Assembly (NCBI RefSeq): GCF_900182605.1
Contig: NZ_FXTB01000002.1
Coordinates: forward strand, 496,001 to 560,000
Length of the DNA stretch: 64,000 nucleotides
From: Saccharicrinis carchari
GTDB taxonomy: Bacteria > Bacteroidota > Bacteroidia > Bacteroidales > Marinilabiliaceae
Direction: 5' to 3'
The translations under genes and the position numbers were made by a program. Below, piece by piece: positions 2,093 through 17,009 of this stretch; within the stretch, counting starts at the first letter, position 1; each line of letters starts with the position of its first letter. A model generated the notes under the pieces. That model saw only the letters and a program-made list of their open reading frames with translations, did not search any database and was not told the origin of the DNA.

Positions 2093-2134
2093 GGAACGTT
2101 TCTGTAAAAACAAGCTGCCCATCAGAACCGTTCC
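2093..2134 (+). repeat. 42-nt hairpin repeat, degenerate copy
   Basis: The left arm GGAACGTTTCTG and right arm CAGAACCGTTCC pair over 12 positions with one mismatch around an 18-nt loop. It starts 25 bases after the yqeY stop. It is the degenerate partner of the canonical copy at 2220. It could act as a terminator or mRNA-stabilising hairpin for the ftsZ-yqeY transcript, but no T-tract follows. Confidence 0.75.
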
Positions 2135-2219
2135 TTACATTAACCATGCTGCCCCATAAAAAAACTCCCCCAGTTAAAATGATAGTATTATTTCTTGCGA
2201 ATAGGCTACCTTTTTTTAG

Positions 2220-2261
2220 GGAACGGTTCTGATTTGCATGACTTATATACAGAACCGTTCC
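2220..2261 (+). repeat. 42-nt hairpin repeat, canonical copy
   Basis: Perfect 12-bp arms, GGAACGGTTCTG and CAGAACCGTTCC, flank an 18-nt loop that begins ATTTGCA and ends TATA. The same arms, loop length and loop ends recur at 8620 and 10594, and with changes at 10524 and 16968. The asymmetric loop fixes the orientation, which is the same in all copies. Confidence 0.85.
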
Positions 2262-2567
2262 AAGATAGGCGGGTACATAACAGATAGGACAGTAAGATAG
2301 TAGAATTTAGGTTCAGGTAATTTGTTGTTTCTTGATAAGATTACCATGCATTATGCCAATGACTTGAATAGAAATGAAGTTAAGTTTTTGGCATCATTCA
2401 GCAAGCTAAGCTTTTTGACTCTAACCGGTTTTTATTCGTTATAACTCCTATAAAATAAGGTCGATATACGGTTGCTTTAAGAGAACAATTTGTAGTAGAA
2501 TCCGTTTCTCACATATACTGAGCGTACAAAAAAATACGTTGCAGCATATGCTGGATATTTATATTAA

Positions 2568-3050
2568 ATGTATAATATAAACTTATTAGAAATGAATTTA
2601 TTACGAGGAGCTTGGTTTGACAAAACCGATTTGATAATAACCCAATGGATGGCGCGTTACGGATACCGATTGATGAGCGTATCTATTGGAATTGTATTTG
2701 TTTGGTTCGGTTTTTTAAAATTCTTTCCGGGCTTGAGTCCGGCGCAGGATTTGGCCATACGCACCATTACCTTGATGAGCTTTGGGCTGATACCTGATTT
2801 TTTAATCATCAACGGCTTGGCTTTTTGGGAAGTGCTTATTGGCGTAGGCCTGATATCGGGTAGGTTTATGCGCGAAACACTACTGCTGTTATTTCTACAA
2901 ATGGCCGGTACATTTGCTCCGGTATTCCTTTTTACCGATGAGGTGTTTACGCGTGTACCATATGCCCCTACGCTTGAGGGGCAATACATCATCAAAAATT
3001 TAGTTCTGATTTCTGCAGGAATAGTATTGGGTGGCAAGCTTCGCAAATAA
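2568..3050 (+). CDS. DoxX-like integral membrane protein
   Basis: A 160-residue protein with four predicted membrane segments, at about residues 35-52, 63-85, 90-110 and 138-155. Length and layout fit the DoxX/DoxD-like family, small four-helix membrane proteins named after a thiosulfate:quinone oxidoreductase subunit and often of unknown role. The motif VWFGFLKFFPG in the first helix is typical of this group in Bacteroidota. An alternative start is the ATG at 2592 (MNLLRG); which is used cannot be decided from the sequence. It is a single gene, separated from yqeY by a 499-base gap and facing the GH2 gene across a shared terminator. The substrate and partner are unknown. Confidence 0.8.
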   Translation: MYNINLLEMNLLRGAWFDKTDLIITQWMARYGYRLMSVSIGIVFVWFGFLKFFPGLSPAQDLAIRTITLMSFGLIPDFLIINGLAFWEVLIGVGLISGRFMRETLLLLFLQMAGTFAPVFLFTDEVFTRVPYAPTLEGQYIIKNLVLISAGIVLGGKLRK

Positions 3051-3089
3051 AGAAATGGCCACGAGGTATGTCCCCGTGGCCATTTCTTT
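3049..3089. terminator. Bidirectional terminator between convergent genes
   Basis: A perfect 15-bp stem (AAAGAAATGGCCACG with its complement at 3075-3089) encloses an 11-nt loop. The flanking A-run on the left and T-run on the right give an oligo-U tail in either direction. It overlaps the stop codon of the + strand DoxX-like gene and lies 14 bases beyond the end of the - strand GH2 gene, so it can stop both transcripts. Confidence 0.88.
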
Positions 3090-3103
3090 ATCTGATAGAT
3101 TTT

Positions 3104-5716
3104 CTATCTCATTAAACTTTCCAATTGAATGCCGGACAAAACAGGGCGCCCCTTTACTTTATTGAATTCAACGACCAACCCATCTTTGGCCTTTGCCTCA
3201 AAACTGATTTTAACCCCTCTTCCACTGCCGTAGTTTTGTGCTAAATTGATGTTTGGTAACACCTTGATTCCATTTGCCTTAATGTCAAATACGCGCAAAG
3301 CCGGGTCATCTATATCTTCCTCATCCGACAAGTTATAGATTACCGTAGACGCCCAAGAGTTGGGCTCCACAAAAAGCAGGGTTACCCGGTAAAGGCCATC
3401 CGCCAAATCAAACCTGTATTGCTCAATCCCTTCGCGCATGGTTTGAAATAAGGGATCGTTATCGGTTCCTTTTATATTGATAGGGGTTCCCTGGAATTTG
3501 TCATTGTTGCGTTGAAAAACCTGACCGCCCACATAGCCCCAGCCCCCGGGGCGATAGGCCTGATCGTGCACCCAAACTTCATCGGAAATGGGATCGGTGT
3601 AATCGCAATGCGAACCCACATTGACACACAAGGGCCGCTCGCTTATTTGATGCAATAGTTTCGATCGTAAAGCCAGTTGCAACTCACCGTGATGAATGGC
3701 TCCTCCGGCTTCCGCTTTTAAGCGATACTGTCCTTCGGGAAGCGAAAGATTAAAACGGGCTATACCGTTATCTACACCTGAAGTTAGATATAAAGTATCA
3801 TTTACCCATAATTTTACCTCTGCCTGATTTGAAAAAACGTCTAAAACAACAAGGCCTGTGACCGAATCCAGGTCCACCGCATATCGCAGCTCACGGTTTT
3901 TATTGGCGATAAATACAAATGGCTTGTCCAGTAACAATGCCTGATAGTAGTGATACACATTTTTAGGGCTGCGGTCGAAATTGAGCAGACCCTTTTGATT
4001 GACAAATGGCCTGGCATCCTGCCGCCCGGAAGAGCCAAAATCGGCAAAATTCCAGGCGGCCATCCCCAGCATATAAGGGCGCTCCATTACCTGTTTATAG
4101 TAACTCCGGTGGCTTTTTAGCTGATAGGCCTCGCTGTAGTCCCAGGGCAATGGGGTATCTGTTTGGATACGGATATCGGCACCCGGGCCGTACTCCGAAA
4201 TCATGATGGGCCTGTTGGGATATAGCCTATGCTGTTGGTCGAGAAAAGCACCCAAATCGTGTAATTGATCATCATACCAACCAAAATACAGGTTCCAGCC
4301 AATCACATCGGGGATATCGGCTATTCCTGTTGTATTGTATATCGGGTTGTTATGCAGGGCCATCACCGTCATTCTATCCGTATCAAGATCCCGGCTCAGG
4401 CTGTCCAGTTGTTGGGCAAGCCTTTTGGACGATAAAATAATTTCCTGTTTCTTCTCTTCGGTCAGGCCTCTTGTAAATACCATGCGAAGAAAAATTTCGT
4501 TCATATAACCCCACATAATTACGGAAGGATGATTATAAAACTGGCTGATGTGTTCGCGTTGCATCTGAAGGCAATTCTGTGTAAAGGCTTCAGAATTGGT
4601 TATCTCATTAATAATAGGAATTTCCGACCAAACCAGGAGCCCCAGTTCATCGCATAAGCGGTAGGCTTCCGGATCGTGGGGATAATGGGCAATGCGCACA
4701 AAGTTGCAGCCCATTTCTTTAATCAGGCGGTAATCTTTTTGATGTATGGCTTTGGGCAGAGCATTTCCCAGGCCTTCATAATCCTGGTGGCGGTTTACGC
4801 CAATAAGTTTGTAGTGCTTGCCATTTAAAAAGAAGCCATTGACGGGGTCGATGCTAAACCAACGGCAACCGAAAGTAGAAGATACCGCATCCGTCATGCT
4901 GTTATCCTTCTTATCCGCAATACTTAGCTCCGCTTTATACAAGGCGGGTGATTCAGGCGACCAAAGCGTTGGTTTGTTTATCTCCGTTTCAAATTTAACA
5001 GGCCGCTTTTCGCCCGGTTTAAGTTTTATATTTTGCTTTAATGTTCTAAGTACTGCCCCATTGGGTTGAACTAGTTTTACAATTACCTCTGCTTTTTTGG
5101 TGGAGCCTGTTTCATTTACCACCACGGCTTCAATGGCCACATCCGCCTCCTGTTCCGACACCGTTGGCGTGCTTATCATAAAACGGCCTGCGGCTTCATT
5201 CTGCACCTCAAAATGTAAAGCAGATGTGGAGATAATGCTAACGTCGCGGTAAATGCCCCCATAAAAGTTAAAGTCGGCCTCCAAAGGGGGGATGTCCGCA
5301 TTGTGCGAGTTGTCCACTTCTACTTTCAGCTGATTTATTTCCCCAAAGGAAACATGACTGGTCAAGTCAAAGGAAAAGCCAGTATAGCCTCCTTTGTGCT
5401 CACCAACAAAATGATCGTTCATCCAGAGTTTGGCGACCTGGTTAGCTCCTTCAAATTTAATGTAAACGCGCCTGTTGCTCCATTCGGCGGGCACAAGCAA
5501 TTGTTTGTGGTAGCTACCCTTTCCCCTGAAATATCCGGCCTCACCCTTAAAAGCATCCTCTGCATTCCAGGTATGCGGCAAATGAACTATTCCGGTGGAT
5601 TCAGGATGCTGATGGAGCGAGAATTGCCATGCAGAATTAATGGTATGCTCAATGCGTTGCCCGCTAAGGACACCGTATTGCACAATAATACTAATGAGCA
5701 GAAATAGCTGTTTCAT
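3104..5716 (-). CDS. Glycoside hydrolase family 2 (beta-galactosidase-like) with C-terminal malectin-like domain
   Basis: Secreted retaining glycosidase of family GH2, of 870 residues. A signal peptide (about 1-19, ending LSGQ) is followed by the sugar-binding jelly roll (about 25-165), an Ig-like domain (about 185-285) and the TIM barrel (about 290-590). In the barrel, NE at 406-407 gives the acid/base Glu407 and ISEYG gives the nucleophile Glu508. The C-terminal part (from about 690, NVGSHCDYTDP onward) looks like a malectin-type carbohydrate-binding domain. GH2 covers beta-galactosidase, beta-glucuronidase and beta-mannosidase; the exact activity cannot be read from the sequence. It is the promoter-distal end of the PUL, 80 bases after the sulfatase gene, with a perfect palindrome in between. 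It presumably works in the periplasm on oligosaccharides from the SusC/SusD importer. Confidence 0.88.
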   Translation of the reverse strand: MKQLFLLISIIVQYGVLSGQRIEHTINSAWQFSLHQHPESTGIVHLPHTWNAEDAFKGEAGYFRGKGSYHKQLLVPAEWSNRRVYIKFEGANQVAKLWMNDHFVGEHKGGYTGFSFDLTSHVSFGEINQLKVEVDNSHNADIPPLEADFNFYGGIYRDVSIISTSALHFEVQNEAAGRFMISTPTVSEQEADVAIEAVVVNETGSTKKAEVIVKLVQPNGAVLRTLKQNIKLKPGEKRPVKFETEINKPTLWSPESPALYKAELSIADKKDNSMTDAVSSTFGCRWFSIDPVNGFFLNGKHYKLIGVNRHQDYEGLGNALPKAIHQKDYRLIKEMGCNFVRIAHYPHDPEAYRLCDELGLLVWSEIPIINEITNSEAFTQNCLQMQREHISQFYNHPSVIMWGYMNEIFLRMVFTRGLTEEKKQEIILSSKRLAQQLDSLSRDLDTDRMTVMALHNNPIYNTTGIADIPDVIGWNLYFGWYDDQLHDLGAFLDQQHRLYPNRPIMISEYGPGADIRIQTDTPLPWDYSEAYQLKSHRSYYKQVMERPYMLGMAAWNFADFGSSGRQDARPFVNQKGLLNFDRSPKNVYHYYQALLLDKPFVFIANKNRELRYAVDLDSVTGLVVLDVFSNQAEVKLWVNDTLYLTSGVDNGIARFNLSLPEGQYRLKAEAGGAIHHGELQLALRSKLLHQISERPLCVNVGSHCDYTDPISDEVWVHDQAYRPGGWGYVGGQVFQRNNDKFQGTPINIKGTDNDPLFQTMREGIEQYRFDLADGLYRVTLLFVEPNSWASTVIYNLSDEEDIDDPALRVFDIKANGIKVLPNINLAQNYGSGRGVKISFEAKAKDGLVVEFNKVKGRPVLSGIQLESLMR

Positions 5717-5757
5717 GGTTTAAGATTATACTTTAAACTGATTAATATGGAGCACCA

Positions 5758-5789
5758 CCAATACATCGGAACATGTTCCGATGTATTGG
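5758..5789. repeat. Perfect 32-bp palindrome after the sulfatase gene
   Basis: All 32 bases are self-complementary about the centre between 5773 and 5774, with core GGAACATGTTCC. It lies 6 bases beyond the sulfatase stop codon (- strand). The GGAAC..GTTCC core resembles the arms of the 42-nt hairpin family, but there is no loop insert. It may be an intercistronic mRNA hairpin or a protein binding site. Confidence 0.8.
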
Positions 5790-5795
5790 CATCCC

Positions 5796-7430
5796 TTACT
5801 TTATCAATCCCCTGTCGCGATACTTTTGGATGTAAGCTTCGTCGAGCTCTCCCGAATCTTTATAATATTTGCGTGTTTCGTATAGTTTTAGGGTGAGTGA
5901 GTCTACTACATCCTGATAGGCCGGGTCGTGGTAAACGCTGTTCAGCTCCAGGGAATCGTTTAAGCGGTCATATAGTTCCCATTCGTCCACATCGTAATAA
6001 AAGTGTACCAACTTATACTCTTTGGTCACGATTCCATAATGCCTCTTTACGGCATGGAAACCGGGATATTCGTAATAATGGTAATAGGCCACGTCCCTGT
6101 GCCATTGGTCGGCCTGTTCGGTTAACAGGGGCATAAAGCTCTCGCCCTGCATATCTTGGGGGGCTTTTATGCCTGCAGCTTCCAGAAAGGTCTGTGCATA
6201 ATCCAGATTTTGAACCATTTCGTCCGACACAGATCCGGGTTTTATTTTTGCCGGCCAGCGTACCACTAAGGGTGTTTTAAACGATTCGTCGTAGATAAAG
6301 CGTTTATCGAACCAGCCATGTTCGCCGAGATAAAAACCCTGATCGGAGGTGTAGACCACAATGGTGTTTTCGCTCAATCCATTTTGGTCGAGATAATCCA
6401 ACACACGGCCCACATTTTCGTCCACGGCAGCAATACAAGCCAGGTAATCCTGCATGTAGCGTTGGTATTTCCATCGCATATAATCTTCGTTGGTCATGCC
6501 GGGATAGTCTTTTTTAAAGGTTTCGTTGATGGGTCCGTAAACGGCATCCCATTGCGCTTTTTGTTCCTCAGTGAAGCGGCCATACTTACTTTTAAACACC
6601 TTGAAGCCCCATTCCGATGGCTCAACAATCTTTAATTCCTTGGCCACTTCCGGATATATTTTGTTGTCGGCCGAAACAGTCATGTGCTTTCGCAGGTTCA
6701 TCTCCGCTGTTTTGGCTGCCGTTCCCCTTCCTTTATAATCGTCGAACAGGGTTTCGGGTTCGGGGAAGATTTTTTGGGTAAAGGCTTTGTAATGCCTTTC
6801 TGCCGGTATCCACTCGCGGTGGGGTGCTTTATGCAGATACATCAACAGAAAAGGCTTTTCTTTTTCTCTTTCAGTATCCAGCCAATCTAATGTCAGGTCG
6901 GTAATTACATCGGTAACATAGCCCATGATGGTCGTATCGCCTTTGGGCGTTATAAAATCGGGGTTGTAATAATCGCCCTGATCGGGCAGAATCATAAACT
7001 CATCGAAGCCTTTTGGGTTGTTACCGAAATGCAGTTTTCCGAACATAGCAGTCTGATACCCATTTTGTTTGAGTATTTGGGGGAACGTGACATTGGTGGT
7101 GTCGAACGGAAAGTTATTATCGATTTTTCCGTGTATGTGGGTATGCTTGCCGGTAAGTATGGTGGCCCTGGATGGTGCGCATATAGAGTTGGTTACGCTG
7201 GCATTGGTAAATAGTATGCCCTCGTTGGCAATACGGTCTATCTGCGGGGTCTCTATCAGCTTATCATTATAAGCACTAATAGCCTGATAAGCATGATCAT
7301 CCGACATAATAAACAGGATATTGGGTCGTTTCTCCTCCTTGGGTTGCTGGCAGGAGCTAAGCGTAATCAGTACAGCTATGGCTAGCATAAATACTGTTTT
7401 TTGTAATAAGGGACTATTCTTCATCACCAT
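5796..7430 (-). CDS. Sulfatase, formylglycine-dependent (alkaline phosphatase superfamily)
   Basis: A 544-residue type I sulfatase-family enzyme. The signal peptide ends in the lipobox LSSC (Cys27), so it is predicted to be a lipoprotein. The metal-binding pair Asp44-Asp45 (IMSDDHA) and the formylglycine site Cys84 in C-A-P-S-R are intact, so it needs a maturation enzyme, which is not in this window. The family hydrolyses sulfate esters, usually on glycans; some members act on phosphonate or phosphate esters. It is the ninth gene of the PUL, 44 bases after the metallophosphoesterase gene. Its substrate is not readable from the sequence. ATGs at 7430 and 7424 are both possible starts; the signal peptide is complete in either case. 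Confidence 0.9.
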   Translation of the reverse strand: MVMKNSPLLQKTVFMLAIAVLITLSSCQQPKEEKRPNILFIMSDDHAYQAISAYNDKLIETPQIDRIANEGILFTNASVTNSICAPSRATILTGKHTHIHGKIDNNFPFDTTNVTFPQILKQNGYQTAMFGKLHFGNNPKGFDEFMILPDQGDYYNPDFITPKGDTTIMGYVTDVITDLTLDWLDTEREKEKPFLLMYLHKAPHREWIPAERHYKAFTQKIFPEPETLFDDYKGRGTAAKTAEMNLRKHMTVSADNKIYPEVAKELKIVEPSEWGFKVFKSKYGRFTEEQKAQWDAVYGPINETFKKDYPGMTNEDYMRWKYQRYMQDYLACIAAVDENVGRVLDYLDQNGLSENTIVVYTSDQGFYLGEHGWFDKRFIYDESFKTPLVVRWPAKIKPGSVSDEMVQNLDYAQTFLEAAGIKAPQDMQGESFMPLLTEQADQWHRDVAYYHYYEYPGFHAVKRHYGIVTKEYKLVHFYYDVDEWELYDRLNDSLELNSVYHDPAYQDVVDSLTLKLYETRKYYKDSGELDEAYIQKYRDRGLIK

Positions 7431-7474
7431 TCTGTTTTTTATATAATCAATTATTAATATTTTAAATTTTTAGC

Positions 7475-8473
7475 TTATTGCTTTAATGACATTGCCTTAA
7501 TAATAAAGTCCTGGCCTTCGTCAGTTTTGTAGGTCTTTGTATAGGGCGAATAAGTTTTAACGCTCATTGTATTTGTACGGTGGTTTATTTTCAATATCCG
7601 TAAAAATCCGTTCCCCCCTTTAACAGATCCCTTAACGCCTGCCTGATAATTGGCCAAATGCTGATAAACGGGCCATCCATCGTCGTTAATGCTGACCAGA
7701 TTGCCCACACCACTATTTAAAACATGTCCGGAGAACACAAAACGGATATTGCCATTTTCTTTAATCAACTTTCTCCATATCTGCTCACCGTCATTCACCG
7801 AGGAGGCACCAGTATCTTTACCTATACCATAAGCCTGCGGTCTCCAGTGGTCGCCTTTGTTCTGGCGCGTGCTGTCGGAATACATGTAGGAATGCGTATT
7901 TACGATTACTGTTCGATCTGGATAATTACGCACCACCCTGTTGGCCCAATCCAATACCATATCCCTCGGGCCAAATTCCAAGTTGATTATCAGCCATTTG
8001 AAACCTGCTTTTTCAATAAGATAGTAGGCATTGTCCATCTTTCCATCTTCAAATACGCCACCAAATGCAGGTAATTTAGACATTTGGTGATAGGGAAAAA
8101 ATGCATTGAACATTTCAGTATGGCGGATATCTGCAAACTTGCCCGGTTCGCTACCCATATCATGATTTCCTACTGCCAGCGCGTAAGGCACAACTCCATT
8201 CAGCTTGTCAAACGCTTCTTTTACAACTGCCCATTCCTCCCGGTTGTTATTTTGAGTTAGGTCGCCCTGTTGCAATACTATATCGATATCTGCTTTGTTT
8301 TCAAGAATCCAATCCACCTGACTTTGCAATATATGCGGAAATTTTTGGGCATAGGTTTGTGTATCTGGCAGCAATACAATAGTTGTAAGCTGCTTTGATG
8401 ATTGACATGCAGCTATTGAAAACAGCAGCAATAGTGCTACCAAGAATCGAGGTGCTTGTTTTTTTAGATTCAT
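7475..8473 (-). CDS. Secreted calcineurin-like metallophosphoesterase (lipoprotein)
   Basis: A 332-residue protein with a lipoprotein signal ending IAAC (Cys23). The dinuclear-metal motifs of the calcineurin-like phosphoesterase fold are visible in order: Asp37 (LPDTQ), Gly70-Asp71, GNHD at 102-105, His194 (VNTHS) and Gly249-His250. The usual terminal GHxH motif reads GHVL here, so the last histidine is missing or replaced from elsewhere. The family cleaves phosphomono- or diesters. Its place between GH43 and the sulfatase in a beta-glucan-type PUL suggests that it removes a phosphate-containing substituent from the glycan, which is inference. The upstream gap of 213 bases carries two hairpin repeats. 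Confidence 0.85.
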   Translation of the reverse strand: MNLKKQAPRFLVALLLLFSIAACQSSKQLTTIVLLPDTQTYAQKFPHILQSQVDWILENKADIDIVLQQGDLTQNNNREEWAVVKEAFDKLNGVVPYALAVGNHDMGSEPGKFADIRHTEMFNAFFPYHQMSKLPAFGGVFEDGKMDNAYYLIEKAGFKWLIINLEFGPRDMVLDWANRVVRNYPDRTVIVNTHSYMYSDSTRQNKGDHWRPQAYGIGKDTGASSVNDGEQIWRKLIKENGNIRFVFSGHVLNSGVGNLVSINDDGWPVYQHLANYQAGVKGSVKGGNGFLRILKINHRTNTMSVKTYSPYTKTYKTDEGQDFIIKAMSLKQ

Positions 8474-8544
8474 TTCTACATTCGTTTTATTTTGAGGGAA
8501 AAAGAGGCTTAAGTTATTCGTAAATCAATCGTTTTGTAATATTC

Positions 8545-8589
8545 GGAACGATTCTGTACGACGAATGCTTTGTGTATCAGATCCGTTCC
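8545..8589 (+). repeat. Hairpin repeat, degenerate copy (45 nt)
   Basis: The arms GGAACGATTCTG and CAGATCCGTTCC pair with two mismatches; the loop is 21 nt and ends GTAT. It is the degenerate partner of the canonical copy 30 bases away at 8620, in the gap between GH43 and the phosphoesterase. Confidence 0.7.
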
Positions 8590-8619
8590 TTACTTTTGAT
8601 TTGCAGATTGGTATTTTAA

Positions 8620-8661
8620 GGAACGGTTCTGATTTGCAGCTTGCCAATACAGAACCGTTCC
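8620..8661 (+). repeat. 42-nt hairpin repeat, canonical copy
   Basis: Perfect 12-bp arms identical to those at 2220, with a loop beginning ATTTGCA and ending AATA. On the transcribed (-) strand it lies 25 bases beyond the GH43 stop codon. A hairpin here could protect the upstream mRNA 3' end or attenuate read-through into the phosphoesterase-sulfatase-GH2 part of the operon. Confidence 0.85.
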
Positions 8662-8686: not shown

Positions 8687-10492
8687 TTATTTCACCTCCA
8701 TCACCTTGGTTTTTTTCGAGATGCCGTTTTCGTTAAAAGCCTCAATGCTGAAATAGTAAGGTGTATCCCTGTCTAAGCAGCGCATAAAGTGCTCGTTAAC
8801 ATCATATACCAACCACGATTGGTACAGTTTGTCCGGAGCAATGCCCCACCGGATATTGTAGCCCTGGGCACCTTCTACCGGCTTCCAGGAGAACTGTGCA
8901 TCCCGCCTGTCCTCCTGTCGTGTTACTTTAAAATCTTTAACCGAAGCCGGTTTTTTACCAAAGCCTTTGCCAAACACCCTTATTTCGGACAAGGCCAGGT
9001 TATTGCCCGGCACTTCCACATTATTGTAACGGACAAACCTTCCTTTAACGGGTTGGTTTAGGACGATATAGGCATTGGGCGAATCTTTATAGCTATTGCT
9101 TCTGTCCACTATGGTTTGCCATACTTTACCATCCTCCGAAACCTCAATGGTAAAACGGTGGCGCAATCCGTCTACACGGGTATATATACCTGACTCATGA
9201 TCGTGATAGTTGATTTGCAAAGCGTAAATATTACCCGGTTTACGCATCTCTATCTTAACCCATTGCTGATTATCGTTTGCATCGGCCACCCAGAAGGATT
9301 TTGGGCTTTCATCGGTCAGCACTTCCGACATGATCTCGCCCGCCTTATTTTTTTTCAGCGGAAGCTCCGTTATATCGTAATCATCATCTGTGGATGTGCT
9401 TTTTACGATTTGCATTTTCGATGAGGAAACCGCTACCTTACCGTTGTAGGATAATAACATCCAGCCGCAATGTTGCCCGGCCATGGTGGGATGGTTGGAT
9501 CCAAAGCGGGGGTAATCGCCATAATGGGTGTTGGAGTACATCAGCCCTTCGGCATCAAAATAGGTGGGGAACATGCAAAGGCGGCGTTCCCAGTGCGAGT
9601 TGGAAGCCAGTGCCATGGTGGCGAAATGCCAGTACTGTCCATTGGTTTGCTTAACGGTGATGCCGTGTCCGGCACCATTAGCAAAGCCACCCGGCTTAAA
9701 GCTCATGGGGTTATTTTTCATATAGGTAAATGGCCCAAGTGGTGTTTCACCGATATAAGCGCCATCGCCATACACATTAAACTGTGTTCCGGGTGCCGCA
9801 TATTGCAAATAGTATTTGCCGTTGTGCTTGGTCATGGAGGCTCCTTCCATGTACCCTTCTTTTATGGTAGGGTGGAAATTGTTTTCGCCAAAGCGCTCCC
9901 AGCCGTGCTCCTCCTCAACCAGGTTAATCAACTCTTTCTGTACCCCTATTTCAAGGAAACGATCATCCCTGTTCAGCATTTTTACACGGATGGGGTGTAC
10001 ATTGGATGAACCCCAGTACAAATAGGCTTTTCCGTCGTCGTCGATAAACAACTCGGAGTCCTGTAAGTTTTTAGAAATAGAAGCTGTGGGTGTCCATTTA
10101 CCGCTTTTCGGGTCGTCGGTATAGAGAATGCTGCCATATCCGGCCGGATCGCCTGCAAAATAAAGCAAGGAATCTTTATAATTAAATGCGGTAGGCGCAT
10201 TACTTCCCTCAAAAAACCATTGTGTCGGTTTGATAAAATCCCAGCTCACCAAATCTTTCGAATGCCAATAACCGAACGAACGGGTAACAAACATATAATA
10301 TTCGCCACGGAATTCAACTACCGCCGGATCGGCACCGGAACGATAGGATATATTCCTGCTGGAATTATACACCATGTAGGTGTAATCCAAATCCATTGGG
10401 TTGCAATAGGTTTGTGGAACTACCTCTTGAGATTGAACACTAACACTTAGCATTAAAATAATGTAGAGGAGGATGTAATTAATATATTTCAT
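8687..10492 (-). CDS. Glycoside hydrolase family 43 with F5/8-type C and fibronectin III domains
   Basis: A 601-residue secreted enzyme. After a signal peptide (about 1-21) comes a five-bladed GH43 propeller with the three expected acids: base Asp55 (SGADPAV), a pKa-tuning Asp at 151-153 (FIDDDG) and acid Glu216 (YMEGAS). Then follow a discoidin-like (F5/8 type C, CBM32-like) domain around 390-510 and a fibronectin type III domain around 515-600. GH43 enzymes remove arabinose, xylose or galactose units from glycans with inversion; the exact sugar is not readable. The start at 10492 gives the natural signal peptide; an ATG at 10522 would add ten residues without signal character. The gene is in the PUL, between GH3 and the phosphoesterase, with paired hairpins in both flanking gaps. 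Confidence 0.86.
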   Translation of the reverse strand: MKYINYILLYIILMLSVSVQSQEVVPQTYCNPMDLDYTYMVYNSSRNISYRSGADPAVVEFRGEYYMFVTRSFGYWHSKDLVSWDFIKPTQWFFEGSNAPTAFNYKDSLLYFAGDPAGYGSILYTDDPKSGKWTPTASISKNLQDSELFIDDDGKAYLYWGSSNVHPIRVKMLNRDDRFLEIGVQKELINLVEEEHGWERFGENNFHPTIKEGYMEGASMTKHNGKYYLQYAAPGTQFNVYGDGAYIGETPLGPFTYMKNNPMSFKPGGFANGAGHGITVKQTNGQYWHFATMALASNSHWERRLCMFPTYFDAEGLMYSNTHYGDYPRFGSNHPTMAGQHCGWMLLSYNGKVAVSSSKMQIVKSTSTDDDYDITELPLKKNKAGEIMSEVLTDESPKSFWVADANDNQQWVKIEMRKPGNIYALQINYHDHESGIYTRVDGLRHRFTIEVSEDGKVWQTIVDRSNSYKDSPNAYIVLNQPVKGRFVRYNNVEVPGNNLALSEIRVFGKGFGKKPASVKDFKVTRQEDRRDAQFSWKPVEGAQGYNIRWGIAPDKLYQSWLVYDVNEHFMRCLDRDTPYYFSIEAFNENGISKKTKVMEVK

Positions 10493-10523
10493 GGTAATAG
10501 CTTTTAAATTTGTGGGCATCAAG

Positions 10524-10565
10524 GGAGCGGTTCTGTTTTACAAGGCGCATATACAGAACCGCTCC
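10524..10565 (+). repeat. 42-nt hairpin repeat with a compensatory stem change
   Basis: The arms are GGAGCGGTTCTG and CAGAACCGCTCC. Relative to the canonical copies, A to G in the left arm is matched by T to C in the right arm, so the 12-bp stem stays perfect. This covariation argues that the folded hairpin is what is conserved. It lies in the GH3-GH43 gap, 31 bases upstream of the GH43 start. Confidence 0.85.
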
Positions 10566-10593
10566 TTATTTTTTTGTGGCTTGGGTAAGGTAG

Positions 10594-10635
10594 GGAACGG
10601 TTCTGATTAGAAGCACGCTTATACAGAACCGTTCC
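10594..10635 (+). repeat. 42-nt hairpin repeat, canonical copy
   Basis: Perfect arms GGAACGGTTCTG and CAGAACCGTTCC with a loop beginning ATTAGAA and ending TATA. On the transcribed (-) strand it begins only 4 bases after the GH3 stop codon. It pairs with the copy at 10524, 28 bases away. Confidence 0.87.
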
Positions 10636-10639
10636 GCCG

Positions 10640-12961
10640 CTATTCCACCAAACTAAACTTTAGGTGCTGCGATTCATCATCAGAGCTGCTAGCTATCCAC
10701 ACGTCAAACTCGCCCGGTTCGGCCAGCCATTTCATATCGATATTGTATAGGCTTACGGTTTCCTCGTTGATGGTGAATTTTACGGTTCTTGTTTCTCCTT
10801 TTTTAAGGCTTATCTTTTCAAAGCCTTTGAGCTCTTTTACCGGACGGGCAACAGAGGCTACTTTGTCGCGGATATACAATTGTACCACCTCTTCGCCATC
10901 CATATCTCCTGTATTGGATACATCAACCGATACGGTGATATTACCACCGGGCACTAATTTTTCCGAACTTATTCTGGCATTGGAATAGGCAAAGCTGGTA
11001 TAACTTAATCCATAGCCAAATGGATACAAGGGTGTATTTGGCACATCAATATACGATGATCTGTAATCGGCCGGTTTATTGGGGTTGAACGGGCGACCTG
11101 TATTTTTCACATTATAAAAAATCGGAATCTGCCCCACGTTCCTCGGGAAAGTCATCACCAGCTTAGCCGACGGGTTGTAATCGCCGCTCAATATATCAGC
11201 CACTGCATGGCCCGACATCAAACCCGGATACCAGGCCTCTACGATGGCATCCATATTTTCATCTTCCCACGATAAATCCAAAGGACGGCCATTAAAAAGC
11301 ACGAGTATAATGGGTTTTCCTGTTTTTTTAAGTTCTTTAAGCAGTTGTCGTTGGTTACCCGGCAAGGTAATATCAGTACGGCTGGCTGCCTCACCCGACC
11401 AATGGTAATTTTCGCCCATGGCCACCAAAATTACATCACTGTCTTTTGCCTTTTGGATGGCTTCGGCAAAACCCGATTTGTCGGGAACCTGGTTGGTTGA
11501 AACGTGGGCTGTTCTTCGATCAATCAAAGGCAGTGTGGTGCCTTGGGCATAGTCGAATTGAACTGCTGAGCCGGCATACTTTTCTTTTAAGCCCTCCATC
11601 AAGGTAACGGATTTACTTCTGTCGCCTTTGATAGCCCATTCACCGTTAAGGCTGTTACGCTCCTCAACAAAAGGACCGATAAGAGCCACCTTGCGGGCTA
11701 CATTCTTTTTCAAGGGCAATATATTATTGTCATTTTTGAGTAATACGATGGATTGCTGTGCCGCCTCTCTTGCCACCTCAATATGCTCGTCATTCATTAT
11801 CACCTTTTTCTCGCGTTCGTCATCAAAATACCGGTAAGGGTCGTCGAACAGTCCCAGAAGAAACTTCATTTCCAAAATGCGCGCTACGGCCACATCAATC
11901 TGCTCTTCTTTTACTTTACCTTCTTTTACCAAAGCGGCCAAATGGCTAACAAAAGCTTCGCTAATCATATCCATATCGATACCTGCATCTAAAGCCAATT
12001 GAGCGGCGTGTTTTAAATCGGCAGCCACCCCATGGGCTATCAGCTCCATAATAGCCGTGTAATCTGTAAGAACCATGCCGTTAAATTTCCATTGGTCGCG
12101 CAAAATATCTTTGTACAAATATTCATTGGCTGTGCAAGGTACTCCGTTCAGGTCGTTAAATGCGGTCATAAAGGTAGCCACCCCCTCATCTACCGTAGCT
12201 TTAAACGGGGGGAGGTAGGTTTCGCGCAGAGTGCGTTCGGACATATCTACCGAATGGTAATCGCGTCCGGCCTGACCTGCACCGTAACCCACAAAGTGTT
12301 TGGCACAGGCCAGCATGGTATTGGGTTTGCTAAAATCTTTATAGGATTGGATACCCTGAAAACCTTTTACCCGGGCACGCGCCACCAGGGAGCTCAAATA
12401 CACATCTTCACCGGCACCTTCCATCACCCGTCCCCAGCGCGGATCACGTGCTACATCAATCATGGGAGCAAAGTTCCATGCCACGCCCGCAGCTGTGGCC
12501 TCCTCGGCAGCTATCCGTGCGGTGCGTTCCATCAGCTCCAAATCCCAGGAGCAAGCCTCGGCAAGGGGTATGGGGAAGGTTGTTTCCAGACCATGGATTA
12601 CGTCAGCCGCAAACAGCATGGGTATTTTCAAGCGCGAATACTTCATGTTCTGCTCTTGGAGCATGCGCAGATGATCGGTACCAAATACATTAAAAGTACT
12701 TCCGATCATACCCTTTTTAAGGTACTCGCCGGAACGGTTACTGCTCACTTCGCCCGTTGATGCAAAATTACCGGAATATTGATTCATCTGTCCTACTTTC
12801 TCATCCAGGGTCATCTTACTCAATAAGGATTCCACCTTTTTCTCGATGGCAGGATCGCCGCTATAGCTTTTCCAACTCGTGTTTTTTTGTGCATGTAGCT
12901 GAAAAGAAAACAAAGCCAGCAAAGCAAGTACTGTCAGTTGAAATTTTGTTGCGTTATACAT
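10640..12961 (-). CDS. Glycoside hydrolase family 3 beta-glucosidase (BglX-like)
   Basis: A 773-residue periplasmic exo-acting beta-glucosidase. The signal peptide (about 1-24, ending LHAQ) is followed by the GH3 barrel with KHF at 221-223 and the nucleophile Asp300 in VLTDY, the alpha/beta sandwich (from about 400) and the C-terminal fibronectin-like domain (about 680-765, ending in a beta strand pattern). Domain order and length match BglX-type enzymes. Next to two GH144 genes the likely substrates are sophorose and short beta-1,2-gluco-oligosaccharides, as known for the GH3 partner of GH144 in Bacteroides. That is inference by context; laminaribiose or cellobiose cannot be excluded. Transcribed after the GH144 pair, across a 331-base gap. 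Confidence 0.93.
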   Translation of the reverse strand: MYNATKFQLTVLALLALFSFQLHAQKNTSWKSYSGDPAIEKKVESLLSKMTLDEKVGQMNQYSGNFASTGEVSSNRSGEYLKKGMIGSTFNVFGTDHLRMLQEQNMKYSRLKIPMLFAADVIHGLETTFPIPLAEACSWDLELMERTARIAAEEATAAGVAWNFAPMIDVARDPRWGRVMEGAGEDVYLSSLVARARVKGFQGIQSYKDFSKPNTMLACAKHFVGYGAGQAGRDYHSVDMSERTLRETYLPPFKATVDEGVATFMTAFNDLNGVPCTANEYLYKDILRDQWKFNGMVLTDYTAIMELIAHGVAADLKHAAQLALDAGIDMDMISEAFVSHLAALVKEGKVKEEQIDVAVARILEMKFLLGLFDDPYRYFDDEREKKVIMNDEHIEVAREAAQQSIVLLKNDNNILPLKKNVARKVALIGPFVEERNSLNGEWAIKGDRSKSVTLMEGLKEKYAGSAVQFDYAQGTTLPLIDRRTAHVSTNQVPDKSGFAEAIQKAKDSDVILVAMGENYHWSGEAASRTDITLPGNQRQLLKELKKTGKPIILVLFNGRPLDLSWEDENMDAIVEAWYPGLMSGHAVADILSGDYNPSAKLVMTFPRNVGQIPIFYNVKNTGRPFNPNKPADYRSSYIDVPNTPLYPFGYGLSYTSFAYSNARISSEKLVPGGNITVSVDVSNTGDMDGEEVVQLYIRDKVASVARPVKELKGFEKISLKKGETRTVKFTINEETVSLYNIDMKWLAEPGEFDVWIASSSDDESQHLKFSLVE

Positions 12962-13292
12962 ATTTACGTTATTTATATTGTTATGATTCTAAATTATTAT
13001 ATGAACTGCGTAAAACCCACAGTTTATGATAAATCTCTACAGGCTGTTCCATAATCATCTTGCATAGTTCCGACGCTCAGAGACTTTACACTTATAAGTA
13101 ACATTATCCTGCGTCGGATTTGCGTGACGTTATTTCCCCGGGTTTAAACCCGGGGTTAAGTTTTGGCAACTCCTACGGAGTTGTGTTTGCATTACTCTTG
13201 ATATCCCCCAGTTGCGCAAACTACATTGGGGGTTATGCCTACTGGCAAAGAAAACTCCGCAGGAGTTTCCCTTTTCCATATTTCGATAGCCG
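12962..13292. other. Intergenic region between GH144 and GH3
   Basis: The gap holds a cluster of palindromes at 13136-13268 (annotated separately). The rest (12962-13135) shows no open frame or structure that I can support. It probably carries a transcript boundary or an internal promoter for the GH3 gene. Confidence 0.5.
13136..13268. repeat. Cluster of four palindromes (REP-like or mobile-element remnant)
   Basis: In order: a perfect 20-bp palindrome CCCCGGGTTTAAACCCGGGG (13136-13155); a 7-bp stem, 3-nt loop hairpin around CAACTCC/GGAGTTG (13167-13183); arms CCCCCA/TTGGGGG (13205-13232); and AAACTCC/GGAGTTT (13252-13268). The cluster ends 25 bases beyond the stop of the first GH144 gene. 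The AACTCC-type arms occur twice in one element, as in extragenic palindromes mobilised by REP-associated transposases. Confidence 0.7.
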
Positions 13293-14672
13293 TCAATTAT
13301 CGTTTACAATAAACCCCAATTTCTCCAAGCCATTTTTTACATCTTTATTTTGCATAAATAAATTCCATAATAATCCGGTTCTATGGTTTTCAACCATCAC
13401 GGGGATGGGGCCCTGATCGATAGCGAGATAACGGGGCACATACCAGTTATGGGTGTGGCTGTAGGCATCGTAGGGCCCATACTTCCCAACCAGCGAATCG
13501 GCCTCACCGTAGATATATCTTAAAAATTGCATCGACTCCTTTGGCGTATAGGGAAAGGATGACAGTGCAGCAGTTGGAGATATAACCCCCAAATCGGCTT
13601 TACCCGGCCGATGGGCGGAATAACCTTTAACCGAATAGCTGGAACTAAGTCCCCATTGTTTTGGACCATAACCTTTAAATTTTTTAGGATTATCCACGCA
13701 ATACCGATAATTGATAAGGGCATGATTTTTATTTAATTCCCAATAATCGCCATAACTGTCCTGCAAACCTTTGGGATTAAGCCCCAGGTAGGAGTAATGT
13801 GCCCAAAATAAGGGTCCCACCGGATCCTTGCCTCCTTGATAATGATTGAGCACCGTGGGTAAATCATAATAAACGGTATCGCGTGTGATGTTACCGTTTG
13901 AAGTCCATCCCTGATGATATACTTGTGGGTGGATAGTATGCGTTGGCGAGGATGCTGCCAGAACATACATGACAAGACACTCGTTGTAACCTCCAATGGG
14001 GAAATCCATGTCCCACCCGTAGTTGGGCGACCAGTGCCAATACAGCACATTTTGCCCCCCATTGGTGTACCAGTCCCATTCCACTTCGTGCCACAAGCGG
14101 GTAATGTCGGATACCAATTGCTGCTCTTCGGCATTACCATCTTTAAAATATTCCGACACAGTGAGCAAGCCTTGTATCATAAATGCCGTTTCTACCAAAT
14201 CGCCCCCGTCGTCCTTTTTACTGAAAGGCTTCACCTTAGCGGTGACTCCATCTAACCAATGGGGCCATACGCCATGGAAGCGGTCGGCACGAGTTAAAAA
14301 ATCTACTATTTTTTGCATGCGTTTCAATCCCTCCTGGCGGGTAATGTAGCCCCGCTCAATGCCCACCAGTATGGCCATAACGCCAAAGCCGGAGCCGCCG
14401 AGGGTTACGATGTGTTGGTCGTTTTGGGGGTAGACATCGTCCGTATGGATACGTTCGGGTGCCATACCGGAATTGGGTTCGGCACCGCTCCAAAAGTAAT
14501 CGAATGTTTGGCGCTGGAGGGTATCTAATAGCTGGTCGTCGGACCAATGACTTACTTTAGATGCCTCCGCTTTATCTTTTCCCATTTTTTTTGCGCCGGA
14601 TGTACAAGCCATAAAACCCATTAGCAATAGGCTAAAAATAATTGGATAAGAGATGTGTTTTATATTTTTCAT
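13293..14672 (-). CDS. GH144 endo-beta-1,2-glucanase-like lipoprotein
   Basis: A 459-residue protein with a lipoprotein signal ending GFMAC. Almost all the rest is one glycoamylase-like (alpha/alpha)6 barrel of the type classified as GH144, with conserved stretches DYFW, GGSGFGVM, HGVWPHWLDG, DDGGDLVETAFMIQG and SSFPYTPKES. Characterised GH144 enzymes cut beta-1,2-glucan internally and release sophorose. The start at 14672 is chosen because it gives the normal lipoprotein signal; the upstream in-frame ATG at 14771 would read through a repeat-rich leader. It follows a second GH144 gene by 114 bases and precedes the GH3 gene, so it likely acts at the cell surface or in the periplasm to feed that glucosidase. 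Confidence 0.88.
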   Translation of the reverse strand: MKNIKHISYPIIFSLLLMGFMACTSGAKKMGKDKAEASKVSHWSDDQLLDTLQRQTFDYFWSGAEPNSGMAPERIHTDDVYPQNDQHIVTLGGSGFGVMAILVGIERGYITRQEGLKRMQKIVDFLTRADRFHGVWPHWLDGVTAKVKPFSKKDDGGDLVETAFMIQGLLTVSEYFKDGNAEEQQLVSDITRLWHEVEWDWYTNGGQNVLYWHWSPNYGWDMDFPIGGYNECLVMYVLAASSPTHTIHPQVYHQGWTSNGNITRDTVYYDLPTVLNHYQGGKDPVGPLFWAHYSYLGLNPKGLQDSYGDYWELNKNHALINYRYCVDNPKKFKGYGPKQWGLSSSYSVKGYSAHRPGKADLGVISPTAALSSFPYTPKESMQFLRYIYGEADSLVGKYGPYDAYSHTHNWYVPRYLAIDQGPIPVMVENHRTGLLWNLFMQNKDVKNGLEKLGFIVNDN

Positions 14673-14682
14673 GTTTGTTAAA

Positions 14683-14734
14683 ATTAGTATCAAGATGTGA
14701 GTGTCAAGTATCAATATGGGCGTATCAAGTTTAG
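14683..14734. repeat. TATCAAG-type direct repeats upstream of a GH144 gene
   Basis: Read on the + strand this segment contains TATCAAG, GTCAAG, TATCAAT and TATCAAG in near-tandem. The same pattern, starting ATTAGTATCAAGAT, occurs at 20387-20425 just upstream of susD. Both lie a few bases before a start codon on the - strand, in the 5' leader of the mRNA. Confidence 0.65.
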
Positions 14735-14786
14735 GCGAACAGTACCCCAACGGAATGTGGTAGCATGTCATTTATAAATAAAAATC

Positions 14787-16754
14787 TCAATAATTAAACC
14801 CAAGCTTCGTTAAGCCCTGTTGAACATCCGTATCTTGCATAAATAAATTCCATAACATTCCTGTTCTGTGATTTTCAATCATTAGGATAATAGGTCCCTG
14901 GTCGATGGCGAGATACGACGAAGCCACCCAGCTATTACTGATACTAAAGGCATCGTAAAAACCATATTCTCCCCATAAGCGGTCGCCCAGTAAATAATAA
15001 AAGTGCTTTAACGCAGCCATGGACTCCTCCGGGGTATAAGGCATGGATGACAGAGCAGCCGTTGGGGTAATCACCCCTTTGTCGTTGGTAGGCGAATGTG
15101 CGGAGTAACCTTCGTGATTATCGCTGGCCGTCAATCCCCAACAATCGCCGCTATAACCTACAAAAGCCTTTGGATTAGCCATGCAGTAGCCACGATTAAT
15201 TAATGTGTGGGCCTGTGCCTGCTCCCAATAATTGGCATAGCTGTCACTCAAATTGCGCGGATCTAATCCTAAAAAAGGATAGTGTTCAAAAAACATCGGA
15301 CCACCATAATCATTGCCCAAAGGCAGGATGATATCGTAGAAGGATTTGCCGTTTTTCATATTTCCGTTTCGCGCCCAACCCTGATCATAAACTTCTTTGG
15401 TAATGGGGTGCGTAGGCGAGGAAGCCGCCAGAACGTAAACAATTAAAGATTCGTTCCAGCCCCTCACTTTCAGATTTTTTTCAAAACCGTATTCGGGCGA
15501 CCAATGCCAGGTAATACTGTTTTCGCCTTGGGTGTACCAGTCCCATTCCACGGCTTCCCATAGTGCATTAATTTTGCTGATGATAGTATTTTCGGTAGGA
15601 TTGCCCGGATTCAGGTATTGTTTAACGGTAAGCAGACCCTGGATCATAAAGGCGGTTTCAACAATATCGCCACCGTTGTCTTTTGTGCTAAAAGGCCTGG
15701 TAAGGCCGGTTGCCCCGTCCATCCAATGCGGCCAAACGCCGTGGAAACGGTCGGCCTTTGCCAAAAAGTCGACAATTTTGGCCAAGCGTGCCACGCCGTC
15801 GGCACGGGAAATGAAACCCCGCTCAATGCCAACAGGTATGGTCATCACGCCAAAGCCCGAGCCACCAATGGTCACCAAATCGCCCCCGGTACTCCTTTCG
15901 CGGCTGAGGCCGGATACGGGATGGGCAAAATCCCAGAAATATTTAAAAGTCTGTTGTTGTACCTTCGTCAATAGCTCTTCGTCGGAAATTACCGGGAATT
16001 TTAGCGATGAATCGAGCTGGGTAAAGAAATTTAACTCCAACCCGTCGAAAGGTTTGCCTATCCGTTTCTGAATTTGGGAAGAAATGGTAAACTGAAACTT
16101 TTGATAATCCTCCAATTCCTGCGTAACCGAGAAAGATATGGTAAGATCGTCGTCCTGGTTTAAATTGTAATTGAGCATAGCCCCATTACTACTAAACGTC
16201 GAAAAATCTTTCAGATCGCTTTGGGCGAGAGGTGTATTGAATCCGAACTTAATTGTCGGGATTCTATCTACATCTATTTGAGTAACCAAAGGATTGATCT
16301 GCTCACCATCTATCCATATCTTCTCCAAAACCAAGGGTAATGTAGTGGTGGTAAATGTGTAAGTCTGTTTTGTAAAAGTTTCGTTTTGCGCACCTTTTAA
16401 ATCATCCGAAATACTTAAAGTGTATAAGTTGTTTTCCTTTAATAGGGGATGATCAATTTTTAACAGCTTATTTTGGTCAAAAAAGGCAAGAGTGACTGTG
16501 ATATCCTGATTATCTGAGTCTATCAATTTGATTGCGTTATTGGCCGTGGTGGGATTTATCGGTTTATCAAATCGTATTTCGATCAGCTCATCGATGGATA
16601 AGTTTTTATTGTCATTAGTTATACTCAATGCCGCATCACCAATATATATGTAGGTCAGGTTCAGCTCTTCCGGCTTTGTATTTTCGTCCTGTTTATCCTT
16701 TTTACAGGCATACAAAATAGATGCAGTAAACAATATGAAAAGGAAGTAGCGCAT
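14787..16754 (-). CDS. GH144 endo-beta-1,2-glucanase-like lipoprotein with N-terminal Ig-like domains
   Basis: A 655-residue lipoprotein (signal ending LYAC, then KKDKQ). Residues about 30-260 form two Ig-like domains of the Big_5 type; the first contains EIRFDKPINP and both end in TFTTT-like strands. The C-terminal part, about 265-655, is a complete GH144 barrel with the same motifs as the next gene (GGSGFGVM, HGVWPHWMDG, DNGGDIVETAFMIQG, SSMPYTPEES). The two genes are clear tandem paralogues; this one gained Ig-like domains that may hold the enzyme away from the outer membrane. It is the third gene after susCD in the PUL. Endo-acting beta-1,2-glucanase is the expected activity from the family; direct evidence is lacking. 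Confidence 0.88.
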   Translation of the reverse strand: MRYFLFILFTASILYACKKDKQDENTKPEELNLTYIYIGDAALSITNDNKNLSIDELIEIRFDKPINPTTANNAIKLIDSDNQDITVTLAFFDQNKLLKIDHPLLKENNLYTLSISDDLKGAQNETFTKQTYTFTTTTLPLVLEKIWIDGEQINPLVTQIDVDRIPTIKFGFNTPLAQSDLKDFSTFSSNGAMLNYNLNQDDDLTISFSVTQELEDYQKFQFTISSQIQKRIGKPFDGLELNFFTQLDSSLKFPVISDEELLTKVQQQTFKYFWDFAHPVSGLSRERSTGGDLVTIGGSGFGVMTIPVGIERGFISRADGVARLAKIVDFLAKADRFHGVWPHWMDGATGLTRPFSTKDNGGDIVETAFMIQGLLTVKQYLNPGNPTENTIISKINALWEAVEWDWYTQGENSITWHWSPEYGFEKNLKVRGWNESLIVYVLAASSPTHPITKEVYDQGWARNGNMKNGKSFYDIILPLGNDYGGPMFFEHYPFLGLDPRNLSDSYANYWEQAQAHTLINRGYCMANPKAFVGYSGDCWGLTASDNHEGYSAHSPTNDKGVITPTAALSSMPYTPEESMAALKHFYYLLGDRLWGEYGFYDAFSISNSWVASSYLAIDQGPIILMIENHRTGMLWNLFMQDTDVQQGLTKLGFNY

Positions 16755-16889
16755 GGATGATATGGTGAATAGTGAAAATGATTTGTTTGAATATGGTTCT
16801 GATTTACAGTTGGGTTACCTCCAATCTTTACTTTCGGCTTCCCGCAATTTTGCAAGACAGGCACTAAAGCAGGACGGATGCAATGTTTA

Positions 16890-16956
16890 GTTGCCGTCAA
16901 CCCCTTGCTTCTCCGCTGAAGTTTCAGCGATACGAGAAAAGGGGTTGACTGGCAAC
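16890..16956. repeat. Long imperfect hairpin
   Basis: GTTGCC-G-TCAACCCCTT (16890-16906) pairs with AAGGGGTTGA-CT-GGCAAC (16939-16956), enclosing an inner hairpin CGCTGAA/TTCAGCG. The outer stem is about 16 bp with one bulge. It lies in the gap between the LamG gene and the second GH144 gene, together with a 42-nt hairpin repeat. A partial left arm of that repeat, GGTTCTGATTT, is also visible at 16795-16805. Confidence 0.75.
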
Positions 16957-16967
16957 TTGGGATTTAA

Positions 16968-17009
16968 GGAACGGTTCTGCTATGCACCGGGCCTATACAG
17001 ACGCGTTCC
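16968..17009 (+). repeat. 42-nt hairpin repeat, right arm diverged
   Basis: The left arm GGAACGGTTCTG is canonical; the right arm CAGACGCGTTCC has two changes. The 18-nt loop ends CCTATA, as in the other copies. On the transcribed strand it begins 21 bases after the stop of the LamG gene. Its expected degenerate partner is reduced to the partial arm near 16795. Confidence 0.78.

Follow-up and report, generated by a model that had tools for sequence, protein, structure and literature searches.

REP-like hairpins dispersed through Saccharicrinis carchari and a hairpin-flanked RAYT lineage in its relatives: a probable family of mobile palindromes in the Bacteroidota

As far as the consulted parts of the cited work extend, the RAYT enzymes studied come from Proteobacteria and are guided by GTAG, and RAYTs that accompany GTAG REPs keep a conserved W residue (PMC6006769, PMC3733652, PMC8266576). 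The classification in PMC6006769, as given in the sections consulted, describes TnpA-Y1 subclass 2.4 (RAYT group 4) by NH[IFV]H, WQ and YIxNNP motifs and by in-gene REP insertions, and lists subclass 2.6 (RAYT group 5) with NH[LIV]H, WQ and YIH[QN]NP. The hairpins considered here lie in gene gaps of a 64,000-nt stretch of DNA from Saccharicrinis carchari, a sugar degrader of marine type (contig NZ_FXTB01000002.1, positions 496,001 to 560,000; hereafter the window), and no paper describing them was recognised in the open-access literature searched. They are very probably REP-like palindromes, mobile but non-autonomous, that belong to a RAYT (TnpA-REP) lineage of the Bacteroidota, and a single-strand HUH/Y1 transposase would copy them.

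The seven complete hairpins listed in the initial annotation do begin at 2093, 2220, 8545, 8620, 10524, 10594 and 16968, and all are 42 nt long apart from the 45-nt copy at 8545. Read with covariance model R2, the first gap holds an inverted doublet, the left member of which (2093..2134) lies on the minus strand with a minus-strand TAA guide at 2135-2137 (50.8 bits on minus, 23.7 on plus), the right member (2220..2261) standing on the plus strand behind a TAG guide at 2217-2219 (60.4 bits). The second gap pairs a degenerate 45-nt hairpin (8545..8589), probably inverted relative to its neighbour and with a minus-strand TAA guide at 8590-8592 (32.1 bits on minus, 18.5 on plus), with a canonical plus-strand hairpin at 8620..8661 behind a TAA guide at 8617-8619 (62.8 bits). 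Both members of the third pair are on the plus strand: the hairpin at 10524..10565 has a compensated arm change, GGAGCGG/CCGCTCC, and AAG at its foot without a TA guide (60.6 bits), and the canonical copy at 10594..10635 has GTAG (10590-10593) abutting its foot (60.7 bits). The last complete hairpin, at 16968..17009 on the plus strand, has two mismatched stem positions and a TAA guide at 16965-16967 (45.1 bits). It is preceded by a plus-strand half copy at 16795..16809 (GGTTCTGATTTACAG) that matches at 15 of 15 bases, where 0.01 matches with at most one mismatch are expected; its 3' half is not recognisable, and neither covariance model, R1 or R2, reports it. Of the four same-gap pairs originally claimed, three are full pairs and the fourth is one copy plus this half copy.

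The further claim that the pairs share one orientation is not supported. Because each arm is the reverse complement of the other, orientation has to be taken from the loop; by R2, two of the three full window pairs are inverted. R1, in whose training 2093 and 8545 had been entered on the plus strand, favours plus for 8545 (39.0 bits versus 32.3 on minus). Genome-wide, four of the five Saccharicrinis carchari pairs are (-,+), one of these four, C1:100887, being weak (E 1.5, with nearly equal scores on either strand), and inverted doublets of the BIME/REPIN type thus occur among the host's own copies. Outside the host genome, inverted pairs and direct arrays are both present.

The arm pattern has 14 matches with at most two mismatches in place of an expected 3.34, a number reached in none of 100 shuffles. 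When five of the window copies were folded as single-stranded DNA (8620 and 10594 left out), 0 to 2 of 200 shuffles folded as well as 2093, 2220, 8545 or 10524, and 12 of 200 equalled 16968. The reported closeness to stop codons is borne out, with coordinate differences of 26 (8620), 5 (10594) and 22 (16968). Rfam gave no window match at gathering score, no T-run was seen by eye downstream of the hairpins on the sense strand, and an intrinsic-terminator scan, which admits only loops of 3-8 nt and is blind to these hairpins, called none there.

The family is dispersed well beyond the window. Covariance searching found at least 21 distinct places in the 4.64-Mb genome at E<=0.01, at least 14 of them outside the window and at least 10 absent from model training, and matches across the taxonomic family in at least 16 of 71 genomes and at least 2 of 21 genera; these counts are lower bounds, at most 150 or at most 91 first-look candidates per genome having been scored with R1 and R2. 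Each of the 22 own copies examined is intergenic and sits at the stop-codon end of a predicted gene; two of these run about 16 nt into the end of a predicted ORF. With 12-bp arms, the 42-nt palindrome falls within the 21-65 nt of REPs in the broad sense, and its copies are likewise dispersed and extragenic. A single polysaccharide-utilisation locus (PUL) has seven of the at least 21 places within 15 kb of it, which prompts the question of an influence of the repeats on PUL transcripts. YqeY, the gene next to the first pair, was located in seven of eight congeners; five of the seven fetched loci aligned there, none covering the pair, and no precise empty site could be defined because the far side differs. 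Two further attempts gave no collinear site.

The stem is maintained by pairing. Across 43 copies, 94.4% of stem cells are paired, and 8 of the 12 stem pairs show compensated changes, with 48 cells changed on both sides; none of 500 shuffles was as high in four of five measures, and in the fifth, the count of additional pair types, 5 of 500 were. The loop, about 18 nt, is conserved and reads roughly ATTTGCANNNTGCTTATA. When copies are oriented by it, 16 of the 22 own copies and 39 of the 42 from elsewhere have TA at -3,-2 of the 5' foot, and just three own copies and three from elsewhere have it on the mirrored 3' side: the element is polar when read by its loop. Among 49 printed flanks, GTAG occurs at the 5' foot in only two, so that the GTAG or GT[AG]G tag of the GTAG-tagged REP superfamily does not characterise them, and the CGTC motif of the CGTC-tagged superfamily was not seen by eye at any foot (both superfamilies as defined in the part of PMC3733652 consulted).

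The initial annotation had proposed looking for a RAYT with matching flanks. Such genes, of Y1/HUH and REP type, exist in relatives; none that is cognate was found in the host itself. Hairpins of the family flank RAYT genes in Carboxylicivirga marina (G019; one before, three after), Marinilabiliaceae A049 (G042; one per side) and Marinilabiliaceae N1Y90 (G043; both sides), a broken RAYT in G054 has them on both sides, and one in an uncultured Carboxylicivirga (G053) has a single hairpin downstream. In 4 of 61 loci R1, built from own-genome copies alone, places hairpins no more than 300 nt from the RAYT, and those four RAYTs are the top four of 35 RAYT ORFs ranked by similarity to the Carboxylicivirga marina protein. 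R1 is independent at L149 and L168; R2 is not, because alignment A4 contains the hairpins of both. Sixty RAYT loci came from the matches listed for two genera, and the hairpin survey covered 73 loci minus L266, many of them given one common gene-end value.

The hairpin-flanked transposase of Carboxylicivirga and its kin is a 194-aa HUH/Y1 protein with NHFH and YTHYNP motifs, which matches Y1_Tnp at its cut-off and REP_Tyr_transpos (NF047646) at 57 bits, below the curated cut-off of 80. Its predicted structure (pLDDT 89) finds as best PDB match in Foldseek 4er8, the RAYT (E. coli TnpA-REP) bound to a REP hairpin (E 7.9e-9, TM 0.54 on the query), an entry that sequence-only comparison reaches just at E 0.024. 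With its HUH and Y motifs and predicted REP-type fold, the protein belongs, on this modelling, to the RAYT (TnpA-REP) family. NHFH is present in 58 of 70 RAYT rows, F occupies the W place in all 47 readable rows (23 further rows being unreadable), most rows have YxHxNP, not YIxNNP, and several loci have in-gene hairpins.

Arm type follows the protein tree. The five RAYTs with GGAACGG arms form one clade (SH-aLRT 93), and other RAYTs carry other hairpins. Fifteen rows of this tree cover less than half the columns, and of its 93 inner branches 39 are open; arm labels were assigned by hand to ten groups, nine arm types and 'none', the latter comprising 51 rows, some of which do have hairpins. Type CCTGACAGG needs four changes and type CCTCCAAGG two, and type GGACTCCATCC shows no clustering (500 of 500 shuffles). 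L177, a RAYT with other arms, has a hairpin of the present family 32 nt from its end, and the L123 and L178 lineages have differently armed hairpins with TTTGCAAGATG in the loop. In the host and eight other congeneric genomes, searching with P0001 found no RAYT of the matching clade. Two own-genome candidates were rejected as cognate: C8:137307, the sole PF01797 match, is IS200-like (NF033573) and sits amid quite different repeats, and the P0001 relative at C8:68492-69064 is 36% identical, with neither an R1 nor an R2 hairpin in its locus. The latter has an in-gene hairpin, AACCCCGAAAGGGTT.

The REP/BIME-like reading proposed at the outset is supported: dispersal, compensated stem, polarity, stop-side placement, RAYTs flanked by the same hairpins in relatives and arms that follow the RAYT clade all point to it. 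Counting against it are the failure to find a RAYT of the matching clade in the host and the congeners searched, the rarity of GTAG at the foot, the failure to find a precise empty site, the hairpin near the differently armed L177, the E 0.024 at which sequence comparison reaches 4er8, and the score below the REP_Tyr_transpos cut-off. Several of the supporting features would also be expected if the hairpins were RNA elements under selection at PUL gene 3' ends, as protectors or attenuators of mRNA, and multiplied by ordinary duplication without a transposase: all 22 copies are stop-side, the arms are compensated, and the RNA hairpins are stable (no shuffle of 200 is as good for three of four folded, and 10 of 200 are for 16968). 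However, the unpaired 5' TA is conserved on one side only, the hairpins adjoin RAYT genes and track their tree, and copies occur next to unrelated genes, with flanks that differ, which leaves this explanation improbable, although both may be partly true if REPs were co-opted. Somewhat less probable still is that the hairpins are fragments of longer duplicated stretches, or parts of an insertion sequence or MITE whose terminal repeats are the arms; C3:27574 and C2:52457 have flanks in common, G003 carries hairpins within tandemly repeated units of about 146-154 nt, and the 2093-2261 doublet resembles doublets of G002 and G006 (169 query bases, 70-71%), but most own copies share just the hairpin and TA and are unlike in their flanks. 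Least probable of all, and very much so, are double-stranded regulator sites, that is, two 9-bp odd palindromes some 33 bp apart. Among 42-nt copies, 13 of the 18 own 5' arms and 10 of the 18 own 3' arms indeed retain every one of the four self-pairs in the 9-nt arm core (21 of 42 and 26 of 42 elsewhere), and palindromic arms recur in hairpins of other RAYTs; yet the copies lie behind genes, not before them, and loop and guide are conserved as well.

If the hairpins are indeed mobile REP-like palindromes, the substrate of the single-strand HUH/Y1 transposase would be the 12-bp stem and conserved loop of about 18 nt, on the strand with TAN 5' of the foot. By analogy with E. coli TnpA-REP, the enzyme would cleave next to the hairpin and use the resulting end for joining or priming, whereby single hairpins and inverted doublets might be copied into gaps behind stop codons. 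The host's own copies may owe their spread to a RAYT that has disappeared since, is absent from the assembly or has been replaced in trans, and hairpins co-transcribed with PUL genes may protect mRNA 3' ends. A bolder and rather doubtful extension is a changed recognition code, in which the RAYT would read a two-base TA guide and the apical loop of about 18 nt, the stems drifting by compensated, often self-palindromic changes, such that a RAYT-less population could be moved in trans by differently armed, loop-sharing RAYTs (for example L123 and L178).

As far as the consulted parts of PMC6006769, PMC3733652 and PMC8266576 allow comparison, the family resembles the REP/BIME/REPIN elements and RAYTs of E. 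coli, Pseudomonas and Stenotrophomonas in being short, dispersed, extragenic and stop-side, in its inverted doublets, arrays and polarity, in the flanked HUH/Y1 RAYT of relatives, and in an arm type that follows the RAYT. It differs in that its 5' foot bears TA where those elements have GTAG or GTGG, its loop of about 18 nt is conserved, its RAYT has F for W, and the search of the host genome found no cognate RAYT. The Marinomonas REPs (42 and 38 nt) are similar in length and large loop but, within the part of PMC8266576 consulted, belong to a group 2 RAYT system, with stem irregularities important for TnpA-Ec cleavage and few conserved loop positions. Compared by description in the consulted sections of PMC6006769, subclass 2.4 (group 4) is a possible but uncertain placement for the present RAYTs, most rows of which have NHFH and several loci of which have in-gene hairpins, but which lack WQ, mostly have YxHxNP and show no GTAG foot. 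Subclass 2.6 (group 5) is, on the same source, similarly of Bacteroidota and flanked by 'atypical secondary structures' with genomic copies elsewhere, whereas the GGAACGG clade has NHFH and F. By eye, rows L115 and L120 look nearer to subclass 2.6 as described there, and no long hairpin was found beside either. In this Bacteroidota lineage, then, the guide is reduced to TA, F takes the place of the W that RAYTs with GTAG REPs conserve, and a conserved loop goes with varying arms; given that many arm types have their own RAYTs, it can be tested directly how guide, loop, arm and protein have co-evolved.

The hairpins form a dispersed family, as had been proposed from the sequence. All seven complete copies (2093, 2220, 8545, 8620, 10524, 10594, 16968) are where the initial annotation placed them, and the partial copy is a half copy at 16795-16809. 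Exact arms with a 16-21 nt spacer occur 7 times in the source genome (4.64 Mb, 31 contigs; the window is contig C2, 496001-560000), and a covariance model built on 11 copies (R1) finds at E≤0.01 at least 21 distinct places, 7 in the window and 14 outside, 10 of the 21 being copies absent from its building set. Matches at E≤0.001 extend to 16 of 71 genomes of the family, namely 8 of 9 in the window's genus and 8 of 14 in g12, a genus of relatives named Carboxylicivirga and Marinilabiliaceae, with none at that threshold in the other 19 genera. One congeneric genome, G003, carries at least 87 strand-wise matches, part in alternating arrays (L071) and part as single 42-nt hairpins within tandemly repeated units of about 146-154 nt, which form several arrays on one contig (L072:1523-2083, 6504-7071, 8599-9050 and 10756-11146).

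Given the Pfam matches of their neighbouring genes (YqeY, GH2, sulfatase, calcineurin-like phosphoesterase, GH43, GH3, putative glucoamylase, laminin-G-like domain) and a Pfam-matched SusD gene just past the hairpin-bearing stretch, the window hairpins lie mostly within one polysaccharide-utilisation locus (PUL); the 15 kb at 2093-17009 holds 7 of the genome's at least 21 hairpin places. When the 21 R1 places and the copy C1:100887 were compared with predicted ORFs of at least 100 aa, none of the 22 lay inside an ORF, two overlapped an ORF end by about 16 nt, and all 22 fell on the stop side of an adjacent ORF, from that overlap to a distance of 152 nt; no gap among them lay between two gene starts. 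An effect on RNA at PUL gene ends is possible. Two other structures were seen here: a longer imperfect inverted repeat at 16890-16955, GTCAACCCCTT ... AAGGGGTTGAC with inner GCTGAAGTTTCAGC, read by eye and absent from the repeat finder's list, directly precedes the 16968 hairpin, and a perfect CCCCGGGTTTAAACCCGGGG stem at 13136-13155, followed by a T-rich stretch, is the top terminator-like call.

In a set of 43 copies drawn from the source genome and its relatives, pairing holds in 94.4% of stem cells (50.9% in the best slid register), and two-sided changes affect 8 of 12 stem pairs (48 cells), as in GGAGCGG/CCGCTCC at 10524, GGAACGGGTCTG/CAGACCCGTTCC at C11:121063 and C2:57517, and GGATCCGATCTT in G003. 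None of 500 shuffles was as high in four of five measures; for further pair types 5 of 500 were. Many single arms are themselves odd palindromes. The loop is conserved, approximately ATTTGCANNNTGCTTATA, and once each copy is oriented by it the two flanks differ. On the 5' side, positions -3,-2 are TA in 16 of 22 copies of the source genome and in 39 of 42 found in other genomes (25 of 28 once like flanks are dropped); the mirrored 3' positions are TA in 3 copies of each of these sets, and the background frequency of TA is about 8%.

Orientation is where the initial annotation, which had the copies paired in the same direction, was mostly wrong. A later model, R2, reads 2093/2220 and 8545/8620 as inverted pairs and 10524/10594 as a direct pair; four of five own-genome pairs are (-,+), one of them dependent on the weak copy C1:100887, and one is (+,+). 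Among neighbours at gaps of at most 40 nt, counted in loci, 11 are (-,+), 4 (+,-) and 1 (+,+), the majority from one G003 array; at 41-130 nt there are 32, of which 22 are direct and come mostly from the tandem units, 6 are (-,+) and 4 (+,-). These orientations and counts shift the description towards BIME/REPIN-like doublets.

A REP-associated transposase (RAYT) with matching flanks, the proposed companion of such a family, was found in relatives but not in the window's own genome. In Carboxylicivirga marina N1Y132 (G019), a 194-aa protein has one family hairpin before it and three after; its gene sits between two sulfatase-like ORFs (translations read by eye). The protein scores 23.3 bits against Pfam Y1_Tnp, slightly above the cut-off of 23, matches NCBIfam REP_Tyr_transpos at E 1.8e-15, under that model's cut-off, and contains NHFH and YTHYNP. 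Its AlphaFold model (from six relatives; pLDDT 89) has as best Foldseek match 4er8, a RAYT bound to a REP hairpin (E 7.9e-9, TM 0.54 on the query, 19% identity), followed by IS200/IS605 transposases; by sequence profiles alone 4er8 reaches only E 0.024. R1, built from the window's genome only, was also applied to 61 RAYT-gene loci. It places hairpins no more than 300 nt from the RAYT in L075, L145, L149 and L167, which among the matches listed are the four nearest to the C. marina protein in a ranking of 35 ORFs; its hits in L158 and L171 are more distant from the gene. In G054 a broken RAYT has hairpins on both sides.

Arms and transposases appear to diverge together. Other RAYTs of the wider family have different hairpins, such as CCTGACAGG, CCTAACAGG, CATCCGATGAC and CTTTTCCAAAG; hairpins with arms of at least 10 lie within 300 nt of a RAYT match in 48 loci (72 of 73 named loci examined, L266 left out), and the 81.0 kb near such matches hold 93 of these hairpins, the remaining 342.2 kb 66. 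In a tree built from 96 RAYT rows, the five with GGAACGG arms group as a single clade (SH-aLRT 93; none of 500 shuffles is as low), and ten hand-set arm groups, 'none' included, require 14 changes, where shuffling gives 29.5 on average and no value as low in 200 trials. Some arm types do not cluster; L177, a RAYT with other arms, is an exception under R2, having a family hairpin 32 nt away. The hairpins of L198, a locus from a Prolixibacteraceae MAG, share the family's arms but are shorter. Hairpins also occur within RAYT reading frames (L114, L121, L156, L178, L180, L183, L187, L198, L207, L208).

The best reading is of a REP-like element that would be handled, as single-stranded DNA, by an HUH/Y1 RAYT recognising the hairpin, the 5' TA guide and the conserved loop. 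The strand would be cut near the hairpin and then joined or used as a primer, a step we infer from proteobacterial enzymes, for which PMC8266576 describes the guide as taking part in cut-site choice and loop bases as essential in some systems. The window's own genome yielded no RAYT of the matching clade; its hairpins may be a leftover population or may be served in trans, or the gene may be missing from the assembly. An IS200-type TnpA gene of that genome (L019:1000-2400, G000:C8, about 136.8-138.2 kb) sits amid long arrays of other repeats, ACTCCTTCGGAGT and CCCCCGGTTACGTAAACTCCACCGGGGG.

The REP/BIME interpretation first offered for these hairpins is supported by the dispersed family and by RAYTs with the same hairpins in relatives. 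The TA is in register with the two central bases of GTAG, the guide of classical REPs, but only 2 of the 49 printed flanks, that of 10594 included, have all four bases. The hairpin system is known in kind; its guide, loop and protein features set it apart as a new form.
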